A stretch of 64,000 bases of DNA, taken from assembly GCA_003278095.1 (NCBI GenBank), contig QCHB01000003.1, positions 1 through 64,000 of the forward strand, written 5' to 3'. Numbering within the stretch: position 1 is the first letter of the stretch; the number at the start of each line of letters is the position of its first letter. Shown here in pieces: positions 43,723 through 63,027 of the stretch. The notes beneath the pieces were generated by a model that did not search any database, was not told the origin of the DNA, and saw only the letters and a program-made list of their open reading frames with translations. The stretch comes from SAR116 cluster bacterium AG-390-L20 (GTDB taxonomy: Bacteria; Pseudomonadota; Alphaproteobacteria; Puniceispirillales; Marisalimonadaceae). The position numbers and the translations under genes are program-made.

Positions 43723-45123
43723 TTATTTTGCACTTATTTTTATTTTATTTCTTATAAGCCATAGACAACTCAAAGAAGGAATTACCATAATGGTTGTTAA
43801 AATAAAAAAAATTCCCCAATCCCCATTTAGCCAATCTACAAGAGCTCCTGAAGATGAAGCAAGAGTTGTTCTTCCAGCAGTTCCTATAGACGCAAGCAAA
43901 GCATATTGAGTGGCTGTATAAGTTCTATCAACCAATAATGAAATAAATGCAACAAATGCTACTGTTGCAAATGCCGCTGCAATATCATCAGCAATCACAG
44001 CAATTGCAAATAATAATTCAGATTTGCCTGTCCAAGCCAAAATTGCAAACAGAAGGTTTGTTAGAGCCATTAACCCTCCAGCAAAAAACATTGTTTTTAT
44101 TGTTCCGGTCCTCATTGCCATTACACCCCCTAACAATGTGAAAACAACAGTAGTAATCCAACCAAGTCCTTTAGAGTAAATGGCAATCTGACCTTTTGAA
44201 AATCCAATTTCTTTATAAAAAACAATAGACATTCGGCCAAGAAATGCTTCGCCAATTTTGAACAAGAAAACAAAACCTAATATTCCTAAAGCTATAGCAA
44301 ATCCATTCTTTTTAAAGAAACTAACTATAGGCCCACCTAAAGTTCCTGCAACATACGCAAGGAATTTAGTTATAAAGTTGCTAGGTCCAAATTTTCCTGC
44401 GATAATTTTATCAGTTTCATTTTGTTTTGTTTGTCTGTCAGTTTCAATTGGCTCATTAATAAACATCAAGCCAATATTCATTAAAATTATTACGACCCCT
44501 AAAACTAAGAAAGTTGCTTGCCAGTAATCAGCAACATTTATCTTTTCAAAATATTCTGCCGTAAACAAAGCTATAACACCTCCTAGTTTATAACCTGTCC
44601 ACCAACCAACTACTGCTATTGCAGCACCAGCTGCCATAGCTTTTCCTTCATTTTGATTGATTTGTTCAATCCTTAAGGCGTCAACAGTTATGTCTTGTGT
44701 AGCCGAAGCTATAGCAATAATTAACCCAACAAAAATTAATAAAGTTAAGTTTTGAGTTGGGTTTATAAAACTCCAAACCAATAAACTTAGTAAAATTGCA
44801 ACTTGCATTAAAACTATCCATCCTCTTCGATGGCCTAGTTTTTTCGTTAACAGAGGTATCTGAATTCTATCTATTATTGGAGCCCATAAATAATTAAATG
44901 CATATACACCAAAAATTAGACCTGCCCACCCTATTGTTGATCTGCTCAGTCCTTCTTCTTTTAACCAAAGACTTAAACTACTTGCAATCAAAACCCATGG
45001 GAAACCGCTTATGGCACCAAGAAGTAAAATTCTTAGCATTCTTATATCTTTAAAAACTAAAATTGATTCAATCCAATTTTGTTTTACTATCATAATAAAA
45101 AATCCAAAAAAGTCATAGATCAT
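43723..45123 (-). CDS. ampG: AmpG-family muropeptide permease
   Basis: The 466-residue MFS-type protein brings GlcNAc-anhydroMurNAc and its peptides back into the cytoplasm. It shows RMLRILLLGAISGFPWVLIASSLSLWLKEEGLSRSTIG, the conserved AmpG start. APIIDRIQIPLLTKKLGHRRGWI, the ASATQDITVDALRIE motif and GWWTGYKLGGVIALF follow. The C-terminal half contains FLFKIGEAFLGRMSIVFYKEIGFSKGQI. It is divergent from the YkuD gene (62 bases apart). It is the entry point for the recycling genes to its right. Confidence 0.92.
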   Translation of the reverse strand: MIYDFFGFFIMIVKQNWIESILVFKDIRMLRILLLGAISGFPWVLIASSLSLWLKEEGLSRSTIGWAGLIFGVYAFNYLWAPIIDRIQIPLLTKKLGHRRGWIVLMQVAILLSLLVWSFINPTQNLTLLIFVGLIIAIASATQDITVDALRIEQINQNEGKAMAAGAAIAVVGWWTGYKLGGVIALFTAEYFEKINVADYWQATFLVLGVVIILMNIGLMFINEPIETDRQTKQNETDKIIAGKFGPSNFITKFLAYVAGTLGGPIVSFFKKNGFAIALGILGFVFLFKIGEAFLGRMSIVFYKEIGFSKGQIAIYSKGLGWITTVVFTLLGGVMAMRTGTIKTMFFAGGLMALTNLLFAILAWTGKSELLFAIAVIADDIAAAFATVAFVAFISLLVDRTYTATQYALLASIGTAGRTTLASSSGALVDWLNGDWGIFFILTTIMVIPSLSCLWLIRNKIKISAK

Positions 45124-45185: not shown

Positions 45186-45728
45186 ATGCAGATAAATTGG
45201 TTAGTGATACATCTTGGTAAAAAATATTTCTTGAAAGTTGGTAATAAAGTTTTTAAGTGTCAAATAGGTTTAGGAGGCTCTAAAAAAACAATAAAAAAAG
45301 TAGAGGGCGATAAAACAACACCAATTGGAAAATGGTATTTAAAATCAATATATTATAGACCTGACAGAGTGTTAAGGCCAAAATTAAAGAAAAAAAATAT
45401 TTTAAAAATAAATCGAATAACAAAATATTGCGGTTGGTGCGATGATATAAGAAGTCATTATTATAACAAATATATCACAATTAATGATTCTCGATCGTTA
45501 AATATCAATTATGAAAGTTTGTGGCGGCAAGACAATGCTTACGATATAATCATTGAAACTTCCCACAACACTAAACCAGTTATAAAAAATAGAGGAAGTG
45601 CAATTTTTATACATTGTAGCTTTGAAAATTTAAGAACAACAAGTGGTTGTGTTGCATTAAAAAAAAGAGATTTGATGTTTCTAATTAAAAATCTTAATAG
45701 TGAAGCTTATATTCAAATTAAAAAGTAA
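45186..45728 (+). CDS. YkuD-domain L,D-transpeptidase/L,D-carboxypeptidase without signal peptide
   Basis: The 180-residue protein is essentially a bare YkuD domain. The active site FIHCSFENLRTTSGCVAL has catalytic His143 and Cys155. The N terminus (MQINWLVIHLGKKYFLKV) already forms the first strand, so there is no signal peptide or membrane anchor and it should be cytosolic. Cytosolic YkuD enzymes such as ElsL of Acinetobacter act as L,D-carboxypeptidases that trim recycled tetrapeptides. Its position next to ampG fits that role better than wall cross-linking. No clear ribosome binding site is seen at the ATG. Confidence 0.85.
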   Translation: MQINWLVIHLGKKYFLKVGNKVFKCQIGLGGSKKTIKKVEGDKTTPIGKWYLKSIYYRPDRVLRPKLKKKNILKINRITKYCGWCDDIRSHYYNKYITINDSRSLNINYESLWRQDNAYDIIIETSHNTKPVIKNRGSAIFIHCSFENLRTTSGCVALKKRDLMFLIKNLNSEAYIQIKK

Positions 45729-45803
45729 TATTTGAAAATATAAAACTTTACAGAATGAATTATTCAAATTAAAAGTTAATTTTTCTAATAATTGAGGTTG
45801 TTG

Positions 45804-47810
45804 ATGCCGTATTCACTTATATCAGTATTTCTTGGCCTTCTTGGCTTATTGTCTGCTTATGCAGTGTATTTAAAGATTAAGTCTTCTTCTGAAGGTGAGG
45901 GCCGAGTTAAAGAGATAGGAGATGAAATACACCTTGGTGCTATGGTGTTTATGTCTGCAGAATACAAAAGACTAGCTATTTTTTGTTTAGTTTGTATTTT
46001 GGCGCTTTATTTTTCTTTAGGGTGGCAAACTGCTGCCTCATTTTTACTTGGTGCATTATGTTCTGGAATTGCTGGATTTATTGGCATGTATTCTGCCACA
46101 AAAGCTAATGTTAGAACAGCTATAGCCGCAAAAGAAAAAGGAGCTGCTGAAGCATTAAATATAGCCTTTTTTGGAGGTTCAGTTATGGGCCTTACTGTCG
46201 CTGCAATGGGCTTGTTTGGGATTGGTATTTTATTCTATTATTTTGCAGGAAATGTTGAAACCATTCATGCAATTGAAGGATTTGCAATGGGCGCATCTTC
46301 TGTTGCATTATTTTCAAGAGTTGGTGGAGGTATTTTTACAAAAAGTGCAGATGTCGGAGCTGACTTAGTTGGTAAAGTAGAAGCGGGTATTCCAGAAGAT
46401 GATCCTAGAAATCCTGCGGTTATTGCTGACAACGTTGGGGATAACGTCGGCGATGTAGCTGGTATGGGATCAGATATTTTTGAATCATATTGTGGATCCA
46501 TGATTGCTTGTATTGCACTTGCAGCGTCGATGACAAGTCTTACAATAACAAATCTTGGTGGTAATCAAACGATGTTGCAATTCATGCCTTTAGCTTTAGC
46601 GTCTTTAGGCTTGATATGCTCATTGTTAGGTATAATTACTGTCAGGGTCTTTTCTTCTAAAAGTCCAGAAACTGCTCTTAGATATGGTACTATTGGCTCT
46701 GCAGTTATTTTTGTTATAACATCATATTTTTTAATTGAATTTATGGGCGTTTCATCAGGTGTTTGGATTGCTGTATTAGTTGGGTCCGTTGGTGGGATAA
46801 TAGTTGGATTAATAACTGAATATTATACTGGAGGTAGTCCAGTAAGGAAAATAGCTAAAGATGGTGAAACTGGTCCAGCTACGGTAATGATATCCGGTCT
46901 TGCTACTGGAATGCAGTCAGTTGCTATACCTGTTTTGACAATAGTAATAATTATTTTTATTTCCAATATATACGCAGGTTTATATGGCGTAGGGATTGCT
47001 GCTGTTGGTATGTTAAGTACTGTTGGAATTACAATGGCGATAGACGCTTACGGTCCTGTTGCCGATAATGCAGGTGGAATTGCCGAGATGTCTGAAATGG
47101 GCAAAGAAACCAGGGAAATAACAGATTCCCTCGACGAAGTTGGGAATACTACAGCTGCTATTGGTAAGGGTTTTGCAATAAGCGCTGCTGCATTAGCAGC
47201 ATTAGCATTAATAAGCGCTTACATTGAAAAAATTTCAAGTCAAGACGCAAGTTTCGTTTTAGCTATTAACGATCCTTTAGTTTTATGTGGTATGTTTTTA
47301 GGAGGTATTTTCCCCTTCTTAGTAAGTTCAATGACAATGACAGCAGTTGGTGACGCAGCCTTTGATATGATTAAAGAAGTTAGAAGGCAATTTAAAGAAA
47401 TACCTGGCTTGTTAGAAGGAAAAGCTAAGCCTGACACAGCTAGATGCGTTGACATTGCAACTAGAGCTGCTTTAAGAAAAATGATAGCTCCTGGTACCCT
47501 TGCAGTTTTGTCACCTGTTATAATTGGATTTTTATTAGGTCCGAAGGCTCTTGGTGGAATGTTAGGTGGAGCACTTATTTGCTGTGTAATGATGGCTTTA
47601 ATGATGTCTAATGCGGGTGGAGCATGGGACAATGCAAAAAAATTTGTTGAAAAAGGAAACTTTGGAGGGAAAGGTTCGGATGTTCACAAAGCTGCTGTAG
47701 TTGGTGACACTGTAGGAGATCCTCTTAAAGATACATCTGGTCCTTCAATGAATATTTTAATTAATGTTATGGCTATAGTAAGTTTGGTTATTGCACCACT
47801 TTTGATCTAG
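45804..47810 (+). CDS. hppA: Membrane-bound ion-pumping pyrophosphatase HppA
   Basis: This integral membrane pyrophosphatase uses PPi hydrolysis to pump H+ (or Na+) outward. It is a 668-residue protein with about 16 helices. The catalytic motif [20 protein letters not shown] and the [18 protein letters not shown] and [12 protein letters not shown] aspartate motifs are intact. The potassium-type position reads [16 protein letters not shown], with alanine where K+-independent enzymes have lysine, so K+ dependence is predicted. The ATG at 45804 with GAGG 6 bases upstream is preferred to the TTG at 45792. A long inverted repeat lies just after the stop. Confidence 0.96.
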
Positions 47811-47853: not shown

Positions 47854-48717
47854 AAACTTCGTTATGGCCGAAAAGTCTAAGTCTCCTTTTTTGTCATTTA
47901 CCATTTGTCTAAAATTTTCTTGAGCTTTGATTCCAAAAGGTGCAAGTGTATTTGTATCATTTATAGCTTTAAGAGCTATACTAAGATCTTTGTACATTAA
48001 GCTTGCTGAAAAACCTGGCTCAAAACTCTTATCTGCAGGGCTTTTAGGGCCAACCCCTGCAATAGGACAATAATTGTTTACAGCCCAACATGACCCTGTT
48101 GAAGTAGATAAAATTTCAAATAATTTTTTGGGATCTAATCCTAAGTTTGTCCCTAAGTTAAAAGCCTCTCCTACTCCTATCATAGTAGTTGCTAGTAACA
48201 TATTGTTACAAGCCTTTGTAGCTTGTCCAGAACCATATGTCCCACATAAAAGTGATTTTTGTCCCATCACACCAAATAGGGGTAACATCATTTTATAAGC
48301 ATTTTCATCGCCCCCAACCATAAATGTTAGTGTTCCATTTTCGGCCCCACCAACACCTCCTGAAACTGGAGCATCAAGAAAGAAAAGGTTTTTAACTTTA
48401 CATTTTTTATGAAGCTCTTTAGCTTTATTAACATCGATTGTAGAACAGTCAGTTATTAGTGTTCCTGGTTTTAGTCTATCTATTATGTTATCTAAGGCCT
48501 CTTCTACAATGTCTCCATTAGGTAACATCGTAATGATTATATCTGTTCCTTTTGATACATCATTTAAATTATTAGCTTTTTTTAGTCCATTAGGAGACAG
48601 TTGATCTATATATTCTTGATTTATATCATAACCTACAACTTCATAATTACTTTTCAAAAGATGAGTTACCATTTTAGATCCCATATTACCTAAGCCAATA
48701 AAACCAATTTTTTTCAT
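47845..48717 (-). CDS. 3-hydroxyisobutyrate dehydrogenase-like enzyme
   Basis: The 290-residue enzyme shows all hallmarks of the beta-hydroxyacid dehydrogenases: the Rossmann motif GFIGLGNMGSKMVTHLL, the substrate motif FLDAPVSGGVGGAENGTLTFMVGG, the catalytic lysine in GSGQATKACNNMLL, and KDLSIALKAI. It is closer to valine-pathway MmsB than the paralogue at 21498. It overlaps the upstream GH84 gene by 4 bases, so the two are translationally coupled. That would be odd for valine breakdown and suggests either chance packing or action on a sugar-acid. No other mms genes are nearby. Confidence 0.88.
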   Translation of the reverse strand: MKKIGFIGLGNMGSKMVTHLLKSNYEVVGYDINQEYIDQLSPNGLKKANNLNDVSKGTDIIITMLPNGDIVEEALDNIIDRLKPGTLITDCSTIDVNKAKELHKKCKVKNLFFLDAPVSGGVGGAENGTLTFMVGGDENAYKMMLPLFGVMGQKSLLCGTYGSGQATKACNNMLLATTMIGVGEAFNLGTNLGLDPKKLFEILSTSTGSCWAVNNYCPIAGVGPKSPADKSFEPGFSASLMYKDLSIALKAINDTNTLAPFGIKAQENFRQMVNDKKGDLDFSAITKFNE

Positions 48718-49868
48718 TTTAATTCTCCTTTTTTTAAAAATTCAGATAGAGGTATTGTTTGACTTTTAATAACTCGATCAGAGGGTAGAAGTTTTTTATT
48801 AATTTGTAAATCTTGCTTTAAGCCAAATAAAAAAGGGTACCATTCTCTTGACAACTCACCTTTCCATTTCCATAAAAGATAATCTATTACTTCTATATCT
48901 TCTCTATTAATCTTAACAGATTGAATGGATGGATTTGAACCAAAGTCTGGCATTAAAAAAAATTTTTTAATTTTAAGAAATAATTCTGGGACGCCATGAG
49001 TGTAGATTATAATTTCCCACTGTCGTGTTGAAAGTTTTCTAATAACACTTCTTCCAAATATATCTAAAATTAGAAGATCTGTCTTTATCATACCTGTTGG
49101 GTTAATCATTATGTTTTTTAAATTTTCTCTCCCTGAAGTGGGCCCTATAAAAAAACGTCTTGGACAATAATCATTTGCATAAAAGTTATCCCAGATGATT
49201 ATCTCATTTGATAAGACTTTATTTATTTTTTCATAATTTTTCATATCTTTACTAACTATGTTTTTTCCGGAATAAAATATTCTTTGGTTAGGGTTTATGG
49301 TTTTGCTTAAATCTTTCAAATAAGAAGGCTCATCCTCTATTAATTCATCTGCATAAATTCTAGGTACAAAAAAAATATTCTGTCCTAATTCATCTGAAAG
49401 TTTGTTAGCCAAAATACCGTGATATGTTCCTTCAGATATATTGTCACCAAACTTTTTTTTAAAATTGTTAGGAATATCGTCTAAAAGCAAAACTATAGAT
49501 TTTGCTCCATCAGCAAGTAATTGTTTGGCTTTATCTAAAAGTGCTTGAAAATCAGAGTTTGTACTCTTTTTTTTGTTACAAATTAATTCTTTAAAATTAA
49601 AATCTAGTCCGGGAGCAATTCCAGCAATAACATCTATCTGATTTTTTTTACTAAATTCTGTAAATCTTCTAAAACTAAGGCGCCATTTTTTACTATATTT
49701 TTTTCTCCAACAAAATCTATGACAAACATCTTCTTTGGGAGCGTATAAATAAGTATTCATTTTATTTTTATAAAGTGATTTAATTATAAGATTTCTATTT
49801 TTCCAAGATAAAATTTTTCCATAATAACCTTCTATATATCCGATTATATTATTTTCAATGTTTTTCAT
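48714..49868 (-). CDS. GH84-type beta-N-acetylglucosaminidase, apparently cytosolic
   Basis: The 384-residue protein is recognised as GH84 (NagJ/O-GlcNAcase family). IIGYIEGYYGKILSW matches the first barrel strand. NTYLYAPKEDVCHRFCWRKKY matches the substrate loop. The catalytic pair Asp130-Asp131 in VLLLDDIPNNF supports substrate-assisted hydrolysis of beta-GlcNAc, and IIIWDNFYANDYCP is the later aspartate/asparagine region. It has no signal peptide and only the catalytic domain plus a short C-terminal region, unlike secreted GH84 toxins. Among anmK, murQ and ampG, its likely job is to split GlcNAc from anhydroMurNAc, the role of NagZ elsewhere; this is inference. It overlaps the dehydrogenase gene by 4 bases. 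Confidence 0.85.
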   Translation of the reverse strand: MKNIENNIIGYIEGYYGKILSWKNRNLIIKSLYKNKMNTYLYAPKEDVCHRFCWRKKYSKKWRLSFRRFTEFSKKNQIDVIAGIAPGLDFNFKELICNKKKSTNSDFQALLDKAKQLLADGAKSIVLLLDDIPNNFKKKFGDNISEGTYHGILANKLSDELGQNIFFVPRIYADELIEDEPSYLKDLSKTINPNQRIFYSGKNIVSKDMKNYEKINKVLSNEIIIWDNFYANDYCPRRFFIGPTSGRENLKNIMINPTGMIKTDLLILDIFGRSVIRKLSTRQWEIIIYTHGVPELFLKIKKFFLMPDFGSNPSIQSVKINREDIEVIDYLLWKWKGELSREWYPFLFGLKQDLQINKKLLPSDRVIKSQTIPLSEFLKKGELK

Positions 49869-49924: not shown

Positions 49925-50614
49925 ATGAAAATTTTAGCACTCGGCGCTCATCCAGATGATATTGAGATTTTTATGTATGGTTTACTTTCTATTTATAAAA
50001 AAGAAGGAAATGAAGTTTATACAATGATTGCTACTGATGGTGCAAAAGGAGGCCTTTTGGGAGATAAAACATTAGTTCAGAAAAGAGCAAAAGAGGCCAT
50101 TAATGGTTTAAAAAAAATATCTGTACCAACCTTTTTAAATCTTCCAGATGGTAGATTAGGAGAAGAACAAGTACATCAAAAAACTATTAAAGAAAATATA
50201 TTAAAAATTATGCCTGATTTAATTATTACTCATGCTCAAAACGATTATCATACTGATCATAGATCTTTGTCTCTACTTACAACTAGTGCAGTTAGTCATT
50301 ATATACCAATTTTATTTTGTGATACTTTGATGGGAGTTAATTTTTTTCCTAACTATTATGTTGATATAACAGATCATTATGAATCTAAAAAAGAAGCTGT
50401 TCTAAAACATAAAACTCAAAACCCTCAAAGATTTTTAGACTTATTTAAGTTAATGAACTCATATAGAGCTGCCCAGTGTAATGCACCAAAAGGCAAATAC
50501 GCAGAAGCATATTGCTTTACACCGTCATTTCCTTTTATAGATATAAAAGGAATATTACCTCCTTCTTTTAAATTAAGACCTTTTCATATAGAAAATCAAA
50601 ATGGTTTCTTATGA
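49925..50614 (+). CDS. PIG-L/LmbE-family zinc deacetylase
   Basis: The 229-residue enzyme has the zinc motif GAHPDDIE (His9, Asp12) and the second metal motif YHTDHRS (His112), the LmbE/PIG-L signature of N-acetylglucosamine deacetylases. VYTMIATDGAKGG and SYRAAQCNAPKGKYAEAY are also typical. There is no signal peptide. Its position between the GH84 gene and anmK suggests it deacetylates a GlcNAc-type product of wall recycling, possibly replacing NagA, although this family also acts on bacillithiol-like or lipid precursors. Its 3' end overlaps the convergent anmK gene by 6 bases. Confidence 0.87.
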   Translation: MKILALGAHPDDIEIFMYGLLSIYKKEGNEVYTMIATDGAKGGLLGDKTLVQKRAKEAINGLKKISVPTFLNLPDGRLGEEQVHQKTIKENILKIMPDLIITHAQNDYHTDHRSLSLLTTSAVSHYIPILFCDTLMGVNFFPNYYVDITDHYESKKEAVLKHKTQNPQRFLDLFKLMNSYRAAQCNAPKGKYAEAYCFTPSFPFIDIKGILPPSFKLRPFHIENQNGFL

Positions 50615-51700
50615 ACCTTTATATAATGATCCTCCTGATGAGGGTTTTGAAACTCCAGTTGTTAGAGGAAATGTAAACGGAAGTTGGTAAACAGACCTAG
50701 CTGATAAATAAGCAATTAATTCGGCTTCTATATAATCAAACTTAATGTCTAATTGTTTTTCATTAAAAATATTTATATTTAATTTATTTTTTAAGCGATT
50801 AATTAAATAAGTATTTCTATATCCACCACCAGTAACTATAAAATTATTAATTTTTTTAGGTAAAAAACTTAAACTAGCTGAAATTGAATCTAGAGTAAAC
50901 TCAGTTAATGTAGCCATAACATCAAATGCAGAATACTCTTTTTCAATTAATTGTTTATAATGACTAATAAATGAAAGCCTATCAAGTGACTTTGGAGGTG
51001 GTTTTTTAAAAAATTCATTCTGTAAAAAAACTTTAATTTCTTCCTTAATTGGTGTCCCTTTAGAGGCAAATTTACCGTCCTTATCATAATTTTTATTAAA
51101 ATGAGTAAACGAATAGTTGTCCATTAATGCATTCCCAGGCCCAGTATCAAAACCAATTAATTTCTTGCCATCCCAGTATGTTAAATTAGAAACACCACCT
51201 ATATTTAGTATACAAGATGGCAGTTCTAAATTACTTTTTTCAATTATAAATTGATGATAAATAGGTGCTATTGGTGCTCCTTGCCCTCCTAAAACCATAT
51301 CATTAGATCTAAAATCAAAAATAACATCCTTATTAAGCAATTTGGCCAACATTTGGGGGTCACCTAATTGAACAGAAGTCTTATTCTCTGGGTCATGAAA
51401 AATTGTTTGTCCGTGAAAACCTATCAAATCACATGTTTCAATTATATCTAAGTCTTTCAAAGCTAGATAATGTTGGTTAGTTACAAACTCGTTTAAGTGC
51501 TGTTTTCTTTTTAAATTAAAGTCTAAATCTTTACTTAAAATACTCATCAAAAACTTTTTAGTGTTATCAGTATATTCATAAAAATAATTTTTATCTTGCC
51601 TTATTAAATCTAACCCATTTGTTCTAACTAAACTAATATCAATCCCATCCATACTGGTTCCGGTCATAAGACCCACAATATTTAAATACTCATATTTCAA
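50609..51700 (-). CDS. anmK: Anhydro-N-acetylmuramic acid kinase AnmK
   Basis: AnmK opens the 1,6-anhydro ring of anhydroMurNAc and phosphorylates it, giving MurNAc-6-phosphate. The 363-residue length is normal. It shows GLMTGTSMDGIDISLV at the N terminus, DLIGFHGQTIFHDP, VQLGDPQMLA, FDFRSNDMVLGGQGAPI, LNIGGVSNLT and the ATP/active-site motif GFDTGPGNALMD with Asp185. VTGGGYRNTYLINRL is near the C terminus. The start is a TTG at 51700 behind AGG at 7 bases. It is divergent from murQ, its pathway partner, with 44 bases between. Confidence 0.95.
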   Translation of the reverse strand: MKYEYLNIVGLMTGTSMDGIDISLVRTNGLDLIRQDKNYFYEYTDNTKKFLMSILSKDLDFNLKRKQHLNEFVTNQHYLALKDLDIIETCDLIGFHGQTIFHDPENKTSVQLGDPQMLAKLLNKDVIFDFRSNDMVLGGQGAPIAPIYHQFIIEKSNLELPSCILNIGGVSNLTYWDGKKLIGFDTGPGNALMDNYSFTHFNKNYDKDGKFASKGTPIKEEIKVFLQNEFFKKPPPKSLDRLSFISHYKQLIEKEYSAFDVMATLTEFTLDSISASLSFLPKKINNFIVTGGGYRNTYLINRLKNKLNINIFNEKQLDIKFDYIEAELIAYLSARSVYQLPFTFPLTTGVSKPSSGGSLYKGS

Positions 51701-51744: not shown

Positions 51745-52488
51745 ATGAGACAAAATATACCTAAAACAGAGCGAGTATTCCAAAATAGTAAACCTATTGA
51801 TAAATTGAATATTTTTGATGGTATTACATTAATTGTTAATGAGCAAAAAAAAGCTGCGCTAGAAGTGAAAAAAGCTGCAATATCAATTAGGTTCGCAATA
51901 AATGAAATTTCAAAACATTTATCGTCTAGTAAAACTGGGCGATTAATTTACGTTGGAGCAGGTACATCAGGTAGAATAGGTGTGCAAGATGGTGTTGAAC
52001 TTTTTCCAACATTTAATTGGCCTAAGAAACGTTTGGATTTCATTATAGCGGGAGGAAATAAAGCTATTATAGAAACAGTTGAAAACGCAGAGGACTGCAC
52101 TTCAGAAGCTTTTAAATCAGTTATAAATAAAAAAATTAATTCTAAAGATGTTGTTATTTGTCTTGCAGCAAGTGGCAATACACCTTTTACGTGTAAAGTT
52201 ATTGAAGAGTCATTTAATCAAGATGCCTTAACCATTGCAATTAGCAATAATCCAAAAGGTAATATACTAAAATTTGGAAAAATTAATATTATCCTTGATA
52301 CAAAAGCAGAAGTTATAGCAGGATCAACAAGATTAAAAGCAGGGACTGCACAAAAAATTTGTTTAAATGCAATTTCTTCAATGGTAATGATAAAATTGGG
52401 TAGAGTAAAGAACGGAATTATGAGTGAAATGGTTCCAACGAACGAGAAGTTAAGAAAAAGAAAAAAATTTTTTCAAATCAAAAATTAA
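51745..52488 (+). CDS. murQ: MurNAc-6-phosphate etherase MurQ, short form
   Basis: MurQ removes D-lactate from MurNAc-6-phosphate, giving GlcNAc-6-phosphate. The SIS-domain motif LIYVGAGTSGRIGVQDGVE contains Glu85, matching the catalytic acid. FIIAGGNKAIIETVENAEDC contains Glu113 or its neighbour as the second glutamate. KAGTAQKICLNAISSMVMIKLGRVKNGIMSEM and PTNEKLRKR complete the core. At 247 residues it stops where E. coli MurQ (about 298) continues into a C-terminal helical region; that part is missing without visible frameshift. It converges on the NlpC/P60 gene with 18 bases between stops. Confidence 0.92.
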   Translation: MRQNIPKTERVFQNSKPIDKLNIFDGITLIVNEQKKAALEVKKAAISIRFAINEISKHLSSSKTGRLIYVGAGTSGRIGVQDGVELFPTFNWPKKRLDFIIAGGNKAIIETVENAEDCTSEAFKSVINKKINSKDVVICLAASGNTPFTCKVIEESFNQDALTIAISNNPKGNILKFGKINIILDTKAEVIAGSTRLKAGTAQKICLNAISSMVMIKLGRVKNGIMSEMVPTNEKLRKRKKFFQIKN

Positions 52489-52506: not shown

Positions 52507-53265
52507 TTATTTATTAAAATCCATCATTTTAATTATGGGATTTTTTTCCCCCATTCTGAAAATTATTTCCTTAAGAGGTTCAATAATAGTTTTCATATGG
52601 TAAGCATTAGCGTGAATACAATTTAATTTATCAACCATTATTCCAACATGCCCTTCCCAAAAAACCACCGATCCTCTGTCCAATTTCTTTACATCATTAA
52701 TTATTTCTTTATCAATATTAACTTGATCAGTAGTATTTCTAGGAATTTTTTGTCCGAAAGTCTCATAAGAAATTTGAAGAAGGGCAGAGCAATCAATTCC
52801 TAAAGTATCCCTTCCGCCCCATTTGTAAGGTGTTTCCAAAAGACTTTCTGATATAAAAACCCAATCTTTAGTAATATTATTAATATTTGATATGTGCTTA
52901 ATGGGTACGAACCCAGTTTTATAAGGATATTTAGAAGGTAAAAAAATTTCTGCCCAATTATTTTCCATTTGTTTTACTGACAATTTAGATCCAAGAGGAA
53001 GATAAATTATAGAGTTAGATTTTTCACTCTTTCTCTCTAAAACAAATGTTCTTTTTGATAATACTCTATGTGTAATAGTTTTAAAATTACACAAACTTTC
53101 ACTTTTCACCCAACCTTGGTAATTATCTGAAAATAATTTGCAAAAAGTCCACTCTAAATAATGATCTAAAGTTTCAACTTGTTCACCAAATAAGCATTCA
53201 GTTTCTAACGGTAAGGCTATAGAAGGCTTGGATCTCATACCAATAGATGGTTCTGCAACTATCAT
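52507..53265 (-). CDS. SH3-NlpC/P60 cysteine peptidase, apparently cytosolic
   Basis: The 252-residue enzyme has two N-terminal bacterial SH3-like segments (about residues 1-125). The NlpC/P60 domain that follows carries Cys159 in GIDCSALLQ, His206 in FWEGHVGIM and His218 in CIHANAYH. Such enzymes cut the D-gamma-glutamyl-diaminopimelate bond of wall peptides. There is no signal peptide. The ORF track starts at 53286, inside the upstream amidase gene. The ATG at 53265 overlaps that gene's TGA as ATGA and gives a protein that begins directly with the SH3 domain (MIVAEPSIGMRSKPS), so I prefer it. It is coupled to the amidase. Confidence 0.9.
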   Translation of the reverse strand: MIVAEPSIGMRSKPSIALPLETECLFGEQVETLDHYLEWTFCKLFSDNYQGWVKSESLCNFKTITHRVLSKRTFVLERKSEKSNSIIYLPLGSKLSVKQMENNWAEIFLPSKYPYKTGFVPIKHISNINNITKDWVFISESLLETPYKWGGRDTLGIDCSALLQISYETFGQKIPRNTTDQVNIDKEIINDVKKLDRGSVVFWEGHVGIMVDKLNCIHANAYHMKTIIEPLKEIIFRMGEKNPIIKMMDFNK

Positions 53266-53666
53266 AATTTCAGATTTTTTGACCATTTGATTACATTAAA
53301 ATTTGGACATGTTTTTTTAGTATTATTATCATCGCAATGACCAATAATTATAGCTCCAGGGTAAGATTTTTTCCATTTCTTTAAAATTTTTTCCAATGAT
53401 ATAAATTGTTTTTTTGTAAATTTATTACGCCCTATCAAACATACCCCTAAGCTTGTCTGATTTTTACCTTTTACATGAGCACCAATCCAATACTCTGGAC
53501 GACCATTTTCAACTTTTCCTGATCTTAGTATAACTTTGTGATATCCTATTCCGTCCCAGCCAAAGCCTAGATGCATATTATGTATATAACTTGCATCTAT
53601 GTTATTATTGTTCGGTGTATCAGAACAATGTACAACAAGCAATTTTATGTCTGACTTAAAAAGCAT
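53262..53666 (-). CDS. T7-lysozyme-like N-acetylmuramoyl-L-alanine amidase
   Basis: The 134-residue Amidase_2 domain resembles phage T7 lysozyme more than AmpD. Zinc ligands are His13 (LLVVHCSDT), His110 (IIIGHCDD) and Cys120 (TKKTCPNF); Tyr42 (GIGYHKVI) and Lys118 occupy the T7 catalytic positions. SHAKG-like GAHVKGKNQTSLGVCLIG is also shared. There is no signal peptide. It overlaps the NlpC/P60 gene by 4 bases, so both ends of the stem peptide are probably attacked by one operon. Acting in the cytosol it could play the AmpD role. It has no phage neighbours. Confidence 0.9.
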   Translation of the reverse strand: MLFKSDIKLLVVHCSDTPNNNNIDASYIHNMHLGFGWDGIGYHKVILRSGKVENGRPEYWIGAHVKGKNQTSLGVCLIGRNKFTKKQFISLEKILKKWKKSYPGAIIIGHCDDNNTKKTCPNFNVIKWSKNLKL

Positions 53667-56529: not shown

Positions 56530-57233
56530 AAACTTGTGTAAACTCTATTAAAATTTCTTATGTCATTAGGAGTATCAATTCTTAAGGGTAAAAAAGTAGA
56601 TAATAAAAAGCTGACTTTCATTTCTTTTAATTTGCAATCATAGATAAAATCTTCTATTTTTTTATAAGGTTTTTTAACATAATTAAATATTCTTTTATCA
56701 ATAAATTTACAACCTAAATCAATATGACTACCAGTATAGTTGTATTTTTTTCCTAAAACAAAATTATCATTAACTTCAAGATTTCCTTTTAACTCTTTCT
56801 TTAAAAGTGAACATACATCTACGTCATCATTTAAAAATTTATTGTACATTGATACGACATCAAAATTAGATATTTCATCACTATTTGTATAAAAAAAATT
56901 GTTTGCAAGATTTTTTCTGATTGAGTAAATTGCATTAAATGTTCCTAGCCGCTCATTATCAGAAAAAAATTCAAAAGAAATATTTTTTTCTTTTAAATAG
57001 GGCTTTACTATATTTTTTAAAATCTCTTCTTTATAAGATGTAATAAATAAAAAGTGTTTAAAGCCTCTATTAATCAACGAATCTAATTTATGTAATATAA
57101 ATGGCCTACCCTTAATTATAATTGCAGGTTTAGGTTTGTGTTTGGTAATAGCACCAAGCCTACTTCCTAATCCACCTGCCATTAAAACACAAGGAGGAAG
57201 AAGGATATTAAATTTATTTGAAATCTTCTTCAA
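56526..57233 (-). CDS. Sugar-1-phosphate nucleotidyltransferase (HddC-like)
   Basis: The 235-residue protein begins with the nucleotidyltransferase signature PPCVLMAGGLGSRLGAITKHKPKPAI, followed by FILHKLDSLINRGFKHFLFITSY. The metal-binding aspartate is in NNFFYTNSDEISNFD. It resembles HddC, which makes GDP-D-glycero-alpha-D-manno-heptose; with gmhA, hddA and gmhB in the same operon this is a reasonable assignment, although other sugar nucleotides are possible. The start is a TTG inside the last codons of neuB (20-base overlap), the only start that keeps the signature intact. Confidence 0.8.
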   Translation of the reverse strand: MKKISNKFNILLPPCVLMAGGLGSRLGAITKHKPKPAIIIKGRPFILHKLDSLINRGFKHFLFITSYKEEILKNIVKPYLKEKNISFEFFSDNERLGTFNAIYSIRKNLANNFFYTNSDEISNFDVVSMYNKFLNDDVDVCSLLKKELKGNLEVNDNFVLGKKYNYTGSHIDLGCKFIDKRIFNYVKKPYKKIEDFIYDCKLKEMKVSFLLSTFLPLRIDTPNDIRNFNRVYTSL

Positions 57234-58293
57234 TTAAAGTCTGATCTCGTGTTTTATTTTTGGTAATTTTTTTGCCTAAGATGTCATAATATTTTGACGC
57301 TGGTATGCCTTCAAATGGTCCTTTTGTTGTTATCATGGTAGCATCGATTATGTCCCCCGCTTTTATTTCCTTAGTTGTAACTAAGCATTTCCCCAAAACA
57401 CTTATAAGTGGACCCTCGCTATCATATTTTTGTTTTATTTCAGTACCTAGGGCTATTTCAACTTCACGAATAGATTTAACCATTTCTGAAAGTTCAGACA
57501 TATCAATAGATGCAGCATGATCAGTACCATTCATTTTCTTATTAAGAGTAACATGTTTTTCAACAACTCTTGCTCCCATAGCTACTGATGCTACTGGCAC
57601 ATGAATACCAGGTTCGTGACCAGAATACCCAATAATATTTTTGTATTTTTTAAGAAAAGTCTTAATTACATTTAGGTCAATTTCATTGTATTTACTTGGA
57701 TAAGCTGAAGTGCATTGTAATAAAATAACTTCAGAATCACCCTGGGAAAGAATACTTAGTGCTTTATCAATATCGTAAATATCAGCTGTACCTGTACTTA
57801 GTATAATAGGCAGTTTAGTTCTAGAGAATTTTTCTAAAAAATGATAATTGGTAATTTCAACACTTGGTATTTTTATTATATTAATGTTCATAGAAAGTAA
57901 AAAATCTAAGCTTTCTTCGTCCCATGGGCTTGCAAAAAATTCTACACCACATTTGTTAGAAAATTCTTGGAGCTCTCTAAAGTTGTCTTCAGTTAATTCC
58001 ACCCTAATATCAGGATAAGACCAAGAACCATATTTAGGTTGGTCAGTTGAAATATCATTAATACTTTTACTTAAATAACCGATTGGATTTTTATTTATTT
58101 TACTTTCAAGCATTATAGACTCAGCTGTCCTTTTCTGAAACTTAACAGCGTCGACTCCAGCTTTTGCACTCTCTTCAATTAATTGTTTGGCAATGTCCAT
58201 ACTACCATTATGGTTGATACCTATTTCAGCAATAATATAGGTAGGTTGGTTGTGCCCAATAATTTTTTTATTAACAATAATTTCTTTATGCAT
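57214..58293 (-). CDS. neuB: N-acetylneuraminate synthase-family protein (NeuB-like)
   Basis: The 359-residue enzyme condenses phosphoenolpyruvate with an N-acetyl amino-sugar to form a nonulosonic acid. The barrel domain shows YIIAEIGINHNGSMDIAKQLIEESAKAGVDAVKFQK, FASPWDEESLDFLL, KIPSVEITNYHFLEK, STGTADIYDIDKAL, LLQCTSAYPS, GYSGHEPGIHVPVASVAMGA and EKHVTLNK. A C-terminal SAF (antifreeze-like) domain covers about residues 298-358 (GKCLVTTKEIKAGDIIDATM). Whether the product is neuraminic, legionaminic or another acid is unclear. It is separated from the pyruvyltransferase gene by 86 bases. Confidence 0.92.
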   Translation of the reverse strand: MHKEIIVNKKIIGHNQPTYIIAEIGINHNGSMDIAKQLIEESAKAGVDAVKFQKRTAESIMLESKINKNPIGYLSKSINDISTDQPKYGSWSYPDIRVELTEDNFRELQEFSNKCGVEFFASPWDEESLDFLLSMNINIIKIPSVEITNYHFLEKFSRTKLPIILSTGTADIYDIDKALSILSQGDSEVILLQCTSAYPSKYNEIDLNVIKTFLKKYKNIIGYSGHEPGIHVPVASVAMGARVVEKHVTLNKKMNGTDHAASIDMSELSEMVKSIREVEIALGTEIKQKYDSEGPLISVLGKCLVTTKEIKAGDIIDATMITTKGPFEGIPASKYYDILGKKITKNKTRDQTLIEEDFK

Positions 58294-58379
58294 ATTCGAT
58301 CTTTTCTATTAATTTCATATAAATTCTATGCCTGATTATTTAAGGTAAGTCAATAAACATATATGAAGGGTTATTAATG

Positions 58380-59474
58380 TTATTTAAGACTTAAAAAGTT
58401 TTTGTTTGTTTGTTTCCAAATATTTTCTTGGATTTTATCAATCTGTTCGTAAGATTGTGATTTTTCAGAAATTAATTTTTCAAGAAGGCGTTCAAAATTT
58501 TGTATGAACTGAGAGTCATCTATTTCTAAACCCCACTCTTCATGATCTATATCTTCAAGTAAATATTTCATTTTATTATGTGTTATTATTGATAATATAG
58601 GCTTTCTTAAACCTAGTGGAATCAATTGAGAATGACCCCTCATTCCAAATGAACAATCAACCTCAGAATAAAAATCACAAATTTCATTTGGATCACATTC
58701 AGTAAGATTCTTTACTTCATAAGTTAGATGAACCTTATCAAGAAACTTCAATATCTCAAGATCTAGATGTTTGTGGGCAACTACTATTATCTTCCAACCT
58801 CTTTTAGATGCTAATTCAAGTGATTTTACTATATTGATAATGTCTTTTTCAAGTCCGTTTGGAAATCTCATTTCAACTCTATCTAATGCTGCATTAAATG
58901 CTAAATGCTTGGAATTTTTCTTTCTGTGCTTAAAAGATTTTGTCATTAGGCTTTTATTAATCTGCCAAAGGCATGTTGTGGGACAAAATTGCAAAGATAA
59001 TTTTTCTTTTAAATCAGGATAAAGATAGTTTTGAATAGATTTTATTGATCCTGAATTTCTTAATCCTACAAAATTTGCCTTCTGCACAAGAGTATTTATA
59101 TGATCTGTGAATATACTGTCAAAATCTTCTTGTCCACGAAACCTGTTATAGCCAACTCCGAAAACATTTATTGGTATTTTAATTTCACTTAAAGCTTCTA
59201 TGCTACAATTCCATTGCCAGCCACTTTTAGAAATATCGCTACCATCTTGATCTCTCAAGAACATTCCGCCTCCACCAATTAATATTTCATCATAAGTCGA
59301 ATTTGCATTTTGAGCGTCTCGAAGACTAAATTTTTTCAAAACATGATGCAGAGACCAATCAATTTTTGAATTAAATATATCAAAACAGCTTCTTGTTACA
59401 GGAAACAAAAGTGTATCCCCAGCATTTTTGTTTGTTGTTGTATGATTTCCTATATGCAGTATTTTTTTATACAT
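58380..59474 (-). CDS. Polysaccharide pyruvyl transferase family protein
   Basis: The protein of about 364 residues matches the PS_pyruv_trans fold: ILHIGNHTTTNKNAGDTLLF near the start, DEILIGGGGMFLRDQDG, NVFGVGYNRF, and the late motif SEVDCSFGMRGHSQLIPLGLRKPILSI. Such enzymes add pyruvate ketals to surface sugars using phosphoenolpyruvate, although some members do other transfers. The ORF-track start at 59501 lies inside neuA. The ATG at 59474 leaves an 8-base overlap and begins MYKKILHIGNH, which is the more natural N terminus. Confidence 0.85.
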   Translation of the reverse strand: MYKKILHIGNHTTTNKNAGDTLLFPVTRSCFDIFNSKIDWSLHHVLKKFSLRDAQNANSTYDEILIGGGGMFLRDQDGSDISKSGWQWNCSIEALSEIKIPINVFGVGYNRFRGQEDFDSIFTDHINTLVQKANFVGLRNSGSIKSIQNYLYPDLKEKLSLQFCPTTCLWQINKSLMTKSFKHRKKNSKHLAFNAALDRVEMRFPNGLEKDIINIVKSLELASKRGWKIIVVAHKHLDLEILKFLDKVHLTYEVKNLTECDPNEICDFYSEVDCSFGMRGHSQLIPLGLRKPILSIITHNKMKYLLEDIDHEEWGLEIDDSQFIQNFERLLEKLISEKSQSYEQIDKIQENIWKQTNKNFLSLK

Positions 59475-60162
59475 TGTTTTTAAAATAAATCTCTCTAGCA
59501 TTTTTTAAATCATCATGTGAATTAATATCTATTGAATTGTCTTTGCTCATTTTATAACCTATTGCTCTTTCTGTATGAAATGTTTCTTTTTTTTTGAGAA
59601 TTTTAGCGTTAGAAATAAATATTGCACCATTAACAGTAAAAATTTCTTGTTGACCTTGTCTTTGTCTATTTGGATCAATATCATTGGATATAAAGCTTAA
59701 AACGTTATTTGTTGAAAACCTAAGATTATTTAAATTTTTACCTAAACCTGTGATGCCAATTACACTTCTATCATTTCCATTAAGGTATAAACTTACTGCT
59801 TCTTGCAGATTTTTTGAGGATCTTAAAGGGCTAGTTGGGAGTAACATAGCCACAGCTTCAGGTTCATAACTTTCTTTTTGATAAAGAAAGTCTAGTGCAT
59901 GAAGAATGACATGAACTGAATGAACGTGATCTTGTGAGAGACTTTTAGGTCTTATAAAAGGCGTTTCTGCGCCATACCTTTTTGCAACCTCTGCTATACG
60001 CTCACTATCAGTTGAAACTAATACTCTATCAAACATATTTGAGTTTAAAGCACTTAGTATTGACCATGACAATAAAGGTTTACCACAAAAATCTATTAAA
60101 TTTTTATCTTTTATACCTTTAGACCCTGACCTGGCAGGTATAATAGCAATTACCTTATTCAT
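59467..60162 (-). CDS. neuA: Acylneuraminate cytidylyltransferase (NeuA-like)
   Basis: The 231-residue enzyme activates a nonulosonic acid with CTP. The signature IAIIPARSGSKGIKDKNLIDFCGKPLLSWSI is complete. VLVSTDSERIAEVAKRYGAETPFIRP, AMLLPTSPLRSSKNL and the metal-binding DINSHDDLKNA end follow. IFTVNGAIFISNAKIL fits the NeuA/LegF/PseF group. It is co-encoded with neuB four positions away in the usual sense of the pathway, with the pyruvyltransferase between them. It overlaps hddA by 8 bases. Confidence 0.92.
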   Translation of the reverse strand: MNKVIAIIPARSGSKGIKDKNLIDFCGKPLLSWSILSALNSNMFDRVLVSTDSERIAEVAKRYGAETPFIRPKSLSQDHVHSVHVILHALDFLYQKESYEPEAVAMLLPTSPLRSSKNLQEAVSLYLNGNDRSVIGITGLGKNLNNLRFSTNNVLSFISNDIDPNRQRQGQQEIFTVNGAIFISNAKILKKKETFHTERAIGYKMSKDNSIDINSHDDLKNAREIYFKNNV

Positions 60163-61168
60163 TTAAACTAGTTTTCAATATTTCTTGAGCATACATTATG
60201 TGACTTCCTTTAAATTCAAAATTAAAAGGGATAGACCTTAAATCTAGCTTTTTAAGCTCCCTATGAAAAGTTTCTTTATCTTTTGGTACGGCCATTAAAA
60301 AAAATCCTCCTCCTCCAGCACCAATAATTTTACCTCCATTAGCTCCTGCATTTTTTAACTTAATATATATATCGTCTAAATATGAATCACTCATCATATT
60401 AGAAATATCTTTTTTTATTGCCCAATGTTCGTCCATAGCTAATCCTAATTGTTCAACATCCCCATTCATGAGGAAACCTTCTGATAAAACACCTATTTTT
60501 TTTATTTTGTCATAGCATTGCATAACATTTTTACTATCATACTGTGACTTGATTATTTTATCAGATCTTCTGTTAACTTTTGAATGGACTAAAACTAATC
60601 CAGATATGAGTTTGTCCAGGTTCAGCGTTGATATATTCAATTTTCTACAGAATATTTTGCCATCTTCATTAATCTCTATTGCTTGAATTCCCCCAAGTGC
60701 AGCAATATACTGGTCCTGATAACCACCATCCAATTTTGTAATATTTCTCTCGATATTAAAAGAAGCTTCCGCAATTTCTATCTTTGACAGAGAAAGTCCT
60801 TTAAGTTTAACAATTGCGTTAACTAAACCTACTGTAAGAGAACTTGAAGCACCTAGGCCGGTATAAGTAGGCATTGAAGAGATAGTGCTAACTTGAATAC
60901 CCTTCGTTAAACTATAGTATTTAAGAATATTTTTAATTAAACGGTGTTTTATATATTCTATGCTATCCGTCCATTCAGTTTCAGAATATTGAAGAAATAT
61001 TTTATCATCTAATATTCTTTCTGCTAAATGGACAGTTATATACTGGTCTATTCCAGCAGTAATTAAAAACCCACCTCTTTCTTTAAAATAAAAAGGCAGA
61101 TCTGTACCACCACCACCTAGTGATATTCTATAAGGGGTGTTGGTAATTACATTTTTAAAAACATTCAT
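60155..61168 (-). CDS. hddA: GHMP kinase, D-glycero-alpha-D-manno-heptose-7-phosphate kinase type
   Basis: The 337-residue GHMP kinase starts NTPYRISLGGGGTDLPFYF, a strong HddA-like opening. The ATP loop is MPTYTGLGASSSLTVGLVNAI, and KIIGAGGGGFFLMAVP is the third GHMP motif. In the GDP-heptose route it phosphorylates heptose-7-phosphate at O1. It is bounded by gmhB (sharing one base, TAATG) and neuA (8-base overlap), so translation is coupled throughout. Similar kinases act on fucose, but the presence of gmhA and gmhB supports heptose. Confidence 0.9.
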   Translation of the reverse strand: MNVFKNVITNTPYRISLGGGGTDLPFYFKERGGFLITAGIDQYITVHLAERILDDKIFLQYSETEWTDSIEYIKHRLIKNILKYYSLTKGIQVSTISSMPTYTGLGASSSLTVGLVNAIVKLKGLSLSKIEIAEASFNIERNITKLDGGYQDQYIAALGGIQAIEINEDGKIFCRKLNISTLNLDKLISGLVLVHSKVNRRSDKIIKSQYDSKNVMQCYDKIKKIGVLSEGFLMNGDVEQLGLAMDEHWAIKKDISNMMSDSYLDDIYIKLKNAGANGGKIIGAGGGGFFLMAVPKDKETFHRELKKLDLRSIPFNFEFKGSHIMYAQEILKTSLNE

Positions 61169-61734
61169 TATTTAGGACTTTCTACAAGATTTAATTCGCT
61201 TAGTTTGTTAACCTTCCTACATATCAATTTTGAATATTGTTGATTAAAGCTATGAAGTTTTAAAATAAATTCTATTTTAAGTTTTGATGCAAATATGTAA
61301 TCTTTATGAGTATCTCCAATATACAACTCAGTATCAAATGAATTTGGAAACAATTTTCTATGATGAAGTAGCATATCAGATTTCGGTTTTCTGCAATCAC
61401 ATTTATACTCAATTGTGTGAGGACAAAAGTAAGCCGCATTAATCGAAACGTGTTTTCTTATTTGATTCAGTGTTTCTAATAAGAAATTTTCGCTAATTAG
61501 ACCTCTGGATAGATCAGGTTGATTTGATATAATTACTGTGTTGTAAGATTTGCTTATAACCTCTTTATTTAATTCAAATAAATTATCATCAAGTATTAAT
61601 TCACTTAAATTTCTTGGAGAAGACATTTTAGAGCCTCTCATAATCACTTCGTTGAGAACACCGTCCTTGTCAAGATAAAGAGTATCTTTAAAAATAGGAT
61701 TTTTGAAGTTAAAACTTAGAAAATTTAACTTCAA
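61168..61734 (-). CDS. gmhB: Heptose bisphosphate phosphatase GmhB-like (HAD-IIIA)
   Basis: The 188-residue HAD phosphatase has the nucleophile motif LYLDKDGVLNE, TVIISNQPDLSRGL and the GmhB zinc knuckle FCPHTIEYKCDCRKPKSDML, then YIGDTHKDYIFASKL. It removes the 7-phosphate from heptose-1,7-bisphosphate. The N terminus carries about 15 extra residues (MKLNFLSFNFKNPIFKD) compared with E. coli GmhB. It overlaps the transaldolase gene by 4 bases. Confidence 0.9.
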   Translation of the reverse strand: MKLNFLSFNFKNPIFKDTLYLDKDGVLNEVIMRGSKMSSPRNLSELILDDNLFELNKEVISKSYNTVIISNQPDLSRGLISENFLLETLNQIRKHVSINAAYFCPHTIEYKCDCRKPKSDMLLHHRKLFPNSFDTELYIGDTHKDYIFASKLKIEFILKLHSFNQQYSKLICRKVNKLSELNLVESPK

Positions 61735-62432
61735 AAAGAATAGCCTGAATTTTTTGCATCTTCAAAAAACATTTTTACAGTTTCTAAGGAATACTCAGTT
61801 GGATCTTTACTAACAAGATTTAACTTCTTGTAAAGAGGCATGCTCATTGTAATAATATCACAATTCACTTCATTAGCTGCAAACAAGTCATAACTCATTC
61901 TTGGACTTGCCCATAGTATCTTGCAGTTACTATTTTTGTGAATAAAGTTTCCCATTTCACTCATTTTTTCTTTAGCATCAATTCCAATGTCATATAATCT
62001 ACCTGCAAAAACTGAAATTATACTGTCTGTTTTAGACATAGCGTCAATGATCTCTTTAATTTGATAAATAGTAAAAATGGCAGTAATATTTAATCTAACA
62101 TTTTCTTTTATAAGATCATTTATAATATCAGTTGTATATTGACCATTTGTTAGTGTTATAGGAATTTTAACATACACGTTCTCTCCCATACTTGAAAGTA
62201 TGAGAGCCTGTTTAATAATAGTGTGTTTGTCGTCTCCAGTAACTTCTAGTGAGATAGGTTTACCCTTAACAAGTTTAACTAATTTTTTTGAATGTGATAA
62301 ATAATCTTGGATACCAAGGTTTTTAAATAAAGTTGGATTGAAAGTATAACCATTAATATTTTCATTATGATTATTTAAAATCTCTTTCTCAGAGGCTCCA
62401 TCTAAATATATCTGTGTTTTAACATCATGCAA
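61731..62432 (-). CDS. Small transaldolase/fructose-6-phosphate aldolase-family protein
   Basis: The 233-residue TIM-barrel protein has the Schiff-base lysine in NVYVKIPITL. Family landmarks are QIYLDGASEKEI (strand 1), GYTFNPTLFKNLG, ISLEVTGDD, LNITAIFTIYQIKEI and ILWASPRMSYDL. It is close to the short transaldolase (TalC/MipB) group. Its position between gmhA and gmhB, in a tightly overlapping operon, suggests it supplies or drains sedoheptulose-7-phosphate, the substrate of GmhA. That link is inference; a decaying or re-purposed aldolase is an alternative. Confidence 0.85.
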   Translation of the reverse strand: MHDVKTQIYLDGASEKEILNNHNENINGYTFNPTLFKNLGIQDYLSHSKKLVKLVKGKPISLEVTGDDKHTIIKQALILSSMGENVYVKIPITLTNGQYTTDIINDLIKENVRLNITAIFTIYQIKEIIDAMSKTDSIISVFAGRLYDIGIDAKEKMSEMGNFIHKNSNCKILWASPRMSYDLFAANEVNCDIITMSMPLYKKLNLVSKDPTEYSLETVKMFFEDAKNSGYSF

Positions 62433-63027
62433 TTTTTTGTCTCTTTTCTTCGTCTAGATAGTCTAAATATAAACATATCAAATGAATGATTGCGATATGT
62501 GCTTCTTGAATATTAGACGTAACGTTTGAGTCCACCACTATGCTTAAGTCAGAAAAGTCTTTAAGAATACCTCCACCTTTACCAGATATGGAAAAAATTT
62601 TTACTCCCATATTTCTTGCTTTTTCCGCTGCTTTAACTAGGTTCATAGATGCTCCGTTTTCTCTATTTCCACCACCAGTAGTAATAAGGAATAATATATC
62701 ACCTGATTTACCCAGAGATTCCACTTGTCGTTCAAAATAAGTTTCAAATCCAAAGTCATTGGCCCAAGCAGTAATAGCAGAAGCATTGTTTGAGAGTGAA
62801 ATTCCTGCAATTCCGGATCTTTTAGGGTCTTTAAAGGTACATAAAAGCTCTCCTGCAAAATGCTCTGAATCAGCGCAAGAACCACCATTCCCACCAATCA
62901 TTATTTTATTTTCAGTTAACTTAAGATCAAAGATTGTTTTTGCCATTAATTTAATAATGTTTTTATCTTTATTTAAACTCGTAATAACTCGAGAGCTTTC
63001 ATTAAAATAATTGTCAAAAATGTTCAT
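62425..63027 (-). CDS. gmhA: Sedoheptulose-7-phosphate isomerase GmhA-like (SIS domain)
   Basis: The 200-residue SIS protein has KIMIGGNGGSCADSEHFAGELLCTF, the GmhA phosphate- and zinc-binding region, then ILFLITTGGGNRENG and VTSNIQEAHIAIIHLICLYLD with the active-site glutamine and histidine. It converts sedoheptulose-7-phosphate to D-glycero-D-manno-heptose-7-phosphate. It opens the heptose part of the operon; the 156 bases upstream (63028-63183) are extremely AT-rich and hold no gene, but could contain a promoter. Confidence 0.92.
   Translation of the reverse strand: MNIFDNYFNESSRVITSLNKDKNIIKLMAKTIFDLKLTENKIMIGGNGGSCADSEHFAGELLCTFKDPKRSGIAGISLSNNASAITAWANDFGFETYFERQVESLGKSGDILFLITTGGGNRENGASMNLVKAAEKARNMGVKIFSISGKGGGILKDFSDLSIVVDSNVTSNIQEAHIAIIHLICLYLDYLDEEKRQKIA

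Follow-up and report, generated by a model that had tools for sequence, protein, structure and literature searches.

The window, a 64,000-nucleotide stretch from the genome of a SAR116 alphaproteobacterium (order Puniceispirillales), carries a peptidoglycan recycling island that includes a gene for a 134-residue amidase of the T7-lysozyme type, coupled to a gene for an NlpC/P60 peptidase. The features of the island and of the adjoining region are listed below.

43723..45123, minus strand: AmpG-type muropeptide permease (TIGR00901, over cut-off)
45186..45728, plus strand: leaderless YkuD protein, candidate cytosolic L,D-carboxypeptidase (putatively ElsL-like)
45792-47810, plus strand: membrane pyrophosphatase (HppA-like), found in the island of the window's genus and near relatives
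48714..49868, minus strand: leaderless GH84 (NAGidase, O-GlcNAcase-type) glucosaminidase, candidate NagZ substitute
49925..50614, plus strand: PIG-L family deacetylase, a conserved island member
50609..51700, minus strand: AnmK anhydro-MurNAc kinase
51745..52488, plus strand: MurQ MurNAc-6-phosphate etherase, 247 amino acids
52507..53265, minus strand: NlpC/P60 cysteine peptidase of the YkfC/dipeptidyl-peptidase VI (DPP VI) type with two SH3b domains, assigned by profile and fold (ORF-finder start 53286)
53262..53265, minus strand: ATGA overlap, the translational coupling signal of the amidase-NlpC/P60 pair
53262..53666, minus strand: leaderless T7-lysozyme-type N-acetylmuramoyl-L-alanine amidase, 134 amino acids (zinc ligands H13/H110/C120, catalytic Y42/K118)
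57214-63027, minus strand: surface-sugar cluster (NeuB, cytidylyltransferase, pyruvyl transferase, GHMP kinase, SIS isomerase) adjoining the recycling island

The gene scan from 43.7 to 63.0 kb brought up no phage genes, the contents being peptidoglycan recycling and surface-sugar genes, in agreement with an earlier note on this DNA that had reported no holin, terminase, or other phage genes near the amidase. That note had also placed the amidase in a recycling operon; the recycling context stands, but the operon does not, since the island genes lie on both strands and the only translationally coupled unit among them is the amidase-NlpC/P60 pair. The coupling itself, which the note had read as ATGA, is seen on the minus strand (...AAATTATGATAG...). 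For the NlpC/P60 gene we prefer the start at 53265, because the resulting N-terminus (MIVAEPS...) fits the MNII/MRVI-KPS starts of homologues, the upstream start at 53286 being only the first ATG taken by the ORF finder. The MurQ of the window is short, covering its model to about position 240 of 300, with the C-terminal part missing.

From its sequence we identify the 134-residue product as a T7-lysozyme-type zinc amidase, with amidase activity predicted. It scores 50 bits against the Pfam domain Amidase_2 and, in a profile search, 156.6 bits (E=1.5e-45) against PHROG_822 ('lysis, amidase'); its closest PDB entry by sequence is T7 lysozyme (E=3e-21), and a structure predicted from 22 sequences (pLDDT 89.5) has 1aro and 1lba as its top fold matches (TM 0.87-0.88). 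In the alignment with T7 lysozyme, H13, H110, and C120 occupy the zinc-ligand positions and Y42 and K118 those of the Tyr/Lys pair, and all five residues are invariant in 22 homologues from across the order, which upholds the earlier observation that the ligands (His, His, Cys) and the Tyr/Lys pair match T7 lysozyme and not AmpD, whose third zinc ligand is Asp. The Cys ligand on its own was nevertheless dropped as proof of phage origin; it is a weak argument because Cys as the third ligand is also common to peptidoglycan-recognition proteins (PGRPs) and many endolysins. The SAR116 enzymes differ from T7 lysozyme in order-specific substitutions that are fixed or nearly fixed, namely Met31 in place of Trp and Phe35 in place of Arg/Lys, and Leu33 is a further order-specific change; as a conjecture, these changes could reflect a shift from polymeric to small substrates.

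The partner protein has its best profile matches in DPP VI (2e-29) and YkfC (5e-23), and over its full length its fold matches that of YkfC (3h41, TM 0.83). Its catalytic Cys-His-His residues (C166, H213, H225) are invariant in 37 sequences. Y56, the equivalent of the YkfC SH3b residue Tyr118 that contacts L-Ala, is invariant as well, and at aligned positions the window copy keeps YkfC Glu83, Thr84, Tyr118, Tyr226, Trp228, Asp237, Cys238, Ser239, and Arg255. At the position of YkfC Asp256, which binds the L-Ala amine, the window copy has Asn184 and so lacks the acidic residue; across the order this position is Asp in about one third of the relatives and Asn in the others. YkfC enzymes require a free N-terminal L-Ala (PMC2954226, PMC9928106), so that an amidase coupled or fused upstream makes sense as the preceding step, and MurNAc-tripeptide is not cleaved by the YkfC of Chlamydia (PMC9928106); the amidase would therefore have to act first.

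Conservation of the pair in related genomes, a check proposed with the original observation, is nearly complete: the NlpC/P60 partner is present in 53 of 54 distinct loci, directly downstream of the amidase in 40 and fused to it in 13, and the single locus without it is a short contig. The fusions (loci L064-L075 and L047) sit on basal SAR116 branches and most of the split amidases form one clade of 19 (87/79), so that separate genes may have arisen from a fused ancestor. In 52 of the 54 homologues the first Met stands 11-28 residues ahead of the first zinc His, and the remaining two, although without an ATG, have just 13 residues between a stop codon and the zinc ligand; none thus has room for a signal peptide, and the signal-peptide-bearing close homologues that would have pointed to a periplasmic enzyme were not encountered. 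With neither a holin nor a signal peptide, the amidase is predicted to stay in the cytosol.

Close relatives are SAR116 single-cell genomes and metagenome-assembled genomes, many of them incomplete. Protein and profile queries were used for the amidase family in place of PF01510; a PF01510 search of the window's own genome missed the window's Amidase_2 gene, whose domain hmmscan does find, which marks a limit of sensitivity and not an absence. The amidase gene was found in 69 of 101 relatives (30 of the 38 more complete ones) and in 14 of 18 genera. The island with AmpG, YkuD, MurQ, AnmK, PIG-L, and GH84 recurs in three families of the order, in varying orientations. Outside the window's own family, AmpG and GH84 accompany the amidase in 29 of 30 amidase-positive genomes and neither occurs in any of 13 amidase-negative ones (0/13); because adjacent genes can go missing together in incomplete assemblies, the order-level count, drawn mostly from genomes more than 85% complete, is the safer one. 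Among the genomes listed for one family (f3), amidase, AmpG, and GH84 are all absent.

Several standard recycling enzymes went undetected in the order. The canonical AmpD model (NCBIfam) matches 115 of 144 sampled alphaproteobacteria, typically at about 100 bits, and finds AmpD in none of 61 genomes of the order, where it picks up just the T7-type amidase at 23-30 bits. GH3 NagZ and S66 LdcA were likewise found in 0 of the 61 genomes, with control genomes positive for both. For Mpl nothing in the order exceeded the cut-off of 388.7, and matches under 200 bits were set aside as MurC-like paralogues. GH84 occurs in 4 of the 144 sampled alphaproteobacteria, two of which belong to the SAR116 order; with GH3 NagZ undetected in the order, the leaderless GH84 of the recycling island may hold a role new to its family. 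The leaderless YkuD gene adjoins AmpG in genomes with no detectable LdcA and is an ElsL-like candidate.

For the amidase tree, AmpD and AmiD from E. coli and alphaproteobacteria served as the outgroup, and PGRPs, which are more distant from the window amidase by sequence and fold, were left out. The 28 SAR116 amidases form one clade (98/96). It separates from AmpD/AmiD with 100/100 support and is nested within the T7-type amidases of phages, phage-plasmids, and prophages (98/73, 98/78, 98/87), its sister (98/87) comprising Zooshikella and a Spartinivicinus plasmid on which terminase and portal genes are found. A tree without AmpD gave the same grouping, and the clade is nested under both outgroup and midpoint rooting. 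Alphaproteobacterial copies from outside the order lie away from recycling genes, several of them adjoining MuA-type transposase, terminase, or tail genes, and the NlpC partner was not found within the fetched flanks of the ten other matching genomes in the phylum sample.

We consider it probable that an ancestor of SAR116 acquired, in a single event, a T7-lysozyme-type endolysin from a phage, and that this enzyme replaced AmpD as the cytosolic recycling amidase. The gene might instead be an ordinary AmpD that resembles T7 lysozyme merely through common membership of Amidase_2, as its place in a recycling island and a weak match to the AmpD model NF008758 (25 bits) would allow; that score, however, is far under the value typical of alphaproteobacterial AmpD, and in view of the tree and the invariant Cys ligand we reject this reading as highly improbable. 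The abundance of the family in phages (1668 phage records) and the phage neighbours of several other alphaproteobacterial copies would suit a lysis gene left by a prophage, or one moving in and out with phages and having no cellular role. Such a gene would hardly keep constant neighbours as one clade across most genera of the order, be fused to a recycling-type peptidase with no phage genes nearby, and be under purifying selection (pairwise dN/dS of 0.08-0.15 in the closest unsaturated pairs), and on synteny, selection, and tree we reject this explanation as scarcely credible.

The enzyme might also be an amidase or autolysin of the envelope, exported to the periplasm in some other way, whose products the island would import. 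T7 lysozyme acts on polymeric peptidoglycan and the nearby AmpG could take in what is released, but we rate this reading as quite improbable. Against it stand the want of room for a signal peptide in every homologue, the lack of a holin, and the need of AmpG-imported anhydro-disaccharide peptides for a cytosolic amidase where no AmpD was found, as well as the fusion to an enzyme of the YkfC type, the homologues of which in proteobacteria are without signal peptides (PMC2954226). Transfer in the reverse direction, from an ancestral cellular amidase of SAR116 to the phages, is in our judgement unlikely. A topology that groups SAR116 with AmpD, apart from the phage set, is not rejected by an AU test (p=0.089), so that the root, and hence the direction of transfer, is likely but not proven; the phage-to-bacterium direction rests on the nested support values given above and on distribution, the enzyme occurring across phages of very diverse hosts and, as a recycling-island gene, in one bacterial order only among the samples searched. 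The proposal in the earlier note that a phage enzyme was recruited as a cytosolic AmpD is supported: the tree does not place the amidase within AmpD, the origin in phages is likely, and the function of a cytosolic AmpD is what genomic context and gene displacement suggest.

Capture of an endolysin would give the following order of reactions. AmpG imports anhydro-disaccharide peptides, and in SAR116 it would bring them into the cytosol, where the captured endolysin would cut the MurNAc-L-Ala bond and free the peptide. Next, the bond that joins gamma-D-Glu to diaminopimelate (mDAP) in this peptide would be cleaved by the YkfC-type NlpC/P60 enzyme, whether coupled or fused, and AnmK and MurQ would process the anhydro-MurNAc sugar, with the leaderless YkuD as the candidate for the LdcA step and the leaderless GH84 as the candidate for the NagZ step. 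Two points count against this scheme: the window's NlpC/P60 copy carries Asn at the Asp256 position, and a cytosolic T7-type amidase could attack UDP-MurNAc-peptide precursors. We see about even chances for the wider proposition that SAR116 rebuilt cytosolic recycling from non-homologous parts. In it, an endolysin takes the place of AmpD, an O-GlcNAcase-type GH84 that of NagZ, and a leaderless YkuD that of LdcA, and reuse by way of Mpl gives way to a YkfC-type peptidase that in some cases is fused to the endolysin.

Each component has a known counterpart. T7 lysozyme (gp3.5, PHROG_822) shares with the SAR116 amidase its fold, its zinc ligands and Tyr/Lys pair, and its form as a leaderless short single domain, whereas the SAR116 gene is chromosomal, inherited within SAR116 as one clade, coupled or fused to NlpC/P60, and free of phage genes nearby. 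AmpD, the cytosolic 1,6-anhydro-MurNAc-L-alanine amidase, resembles it in belonging to the Amidase_2 family and in predicted location and pathway step, but falls in a separate clade, has Asp in place of Cys as the third ligand, and was itself not detected in the order. The partner is like YkfC/DPP VI (PMC2954226; Chlamydia YkfC, PMC9928106) in its two SH3b domains and NlpC/P60 domain, its full-length fold, and most substrate-site residues, and unlike it in the Asn at the Asp256 position and in being coupled, or in some relatives fused, to an amidase. The YkuD protein recalls the leaderless YkuD L,D-carboxypeptidases of the ElsL type (PMC8649774), being leaderless, near AmpG, and in genomes where LdcA is undetected, and its orthology is putative. 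Recycling in Caulobacter (PMC11980594, PMC13046382) likewise has AmpG, AnmK, and an amidase step, but uses AmpD, NagZ, and the MurU shunt where SAR116 has the T7-type amidase, GH84, and MurQ.

Searches of the open-access literature brought up neither a T7-type endolysin that serves as recycling amidase nor a part for GH84 in peptidoglycan recycling, and nothing on point for SAR116 and peptidoglycan. The enzyme families described here are known and their combination is new, an order-wide conserved rewiring of recycling. It points to GH84 as an unsuspected way to free GlcNAc from muropeptides, raises the question of how a T7-type amidase spares cytosolic UDP-MurNAc-peptide precursors, and shows a route by which an endolysin, confined to the cytosol and without a holin, may be adopted inside the cell. 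If the reading is true, this is a clear case in which a viral enzyme of cell lysis displaced a housekeeping enzyme throughout an entire order of bacteria that is abundant in the ocean.
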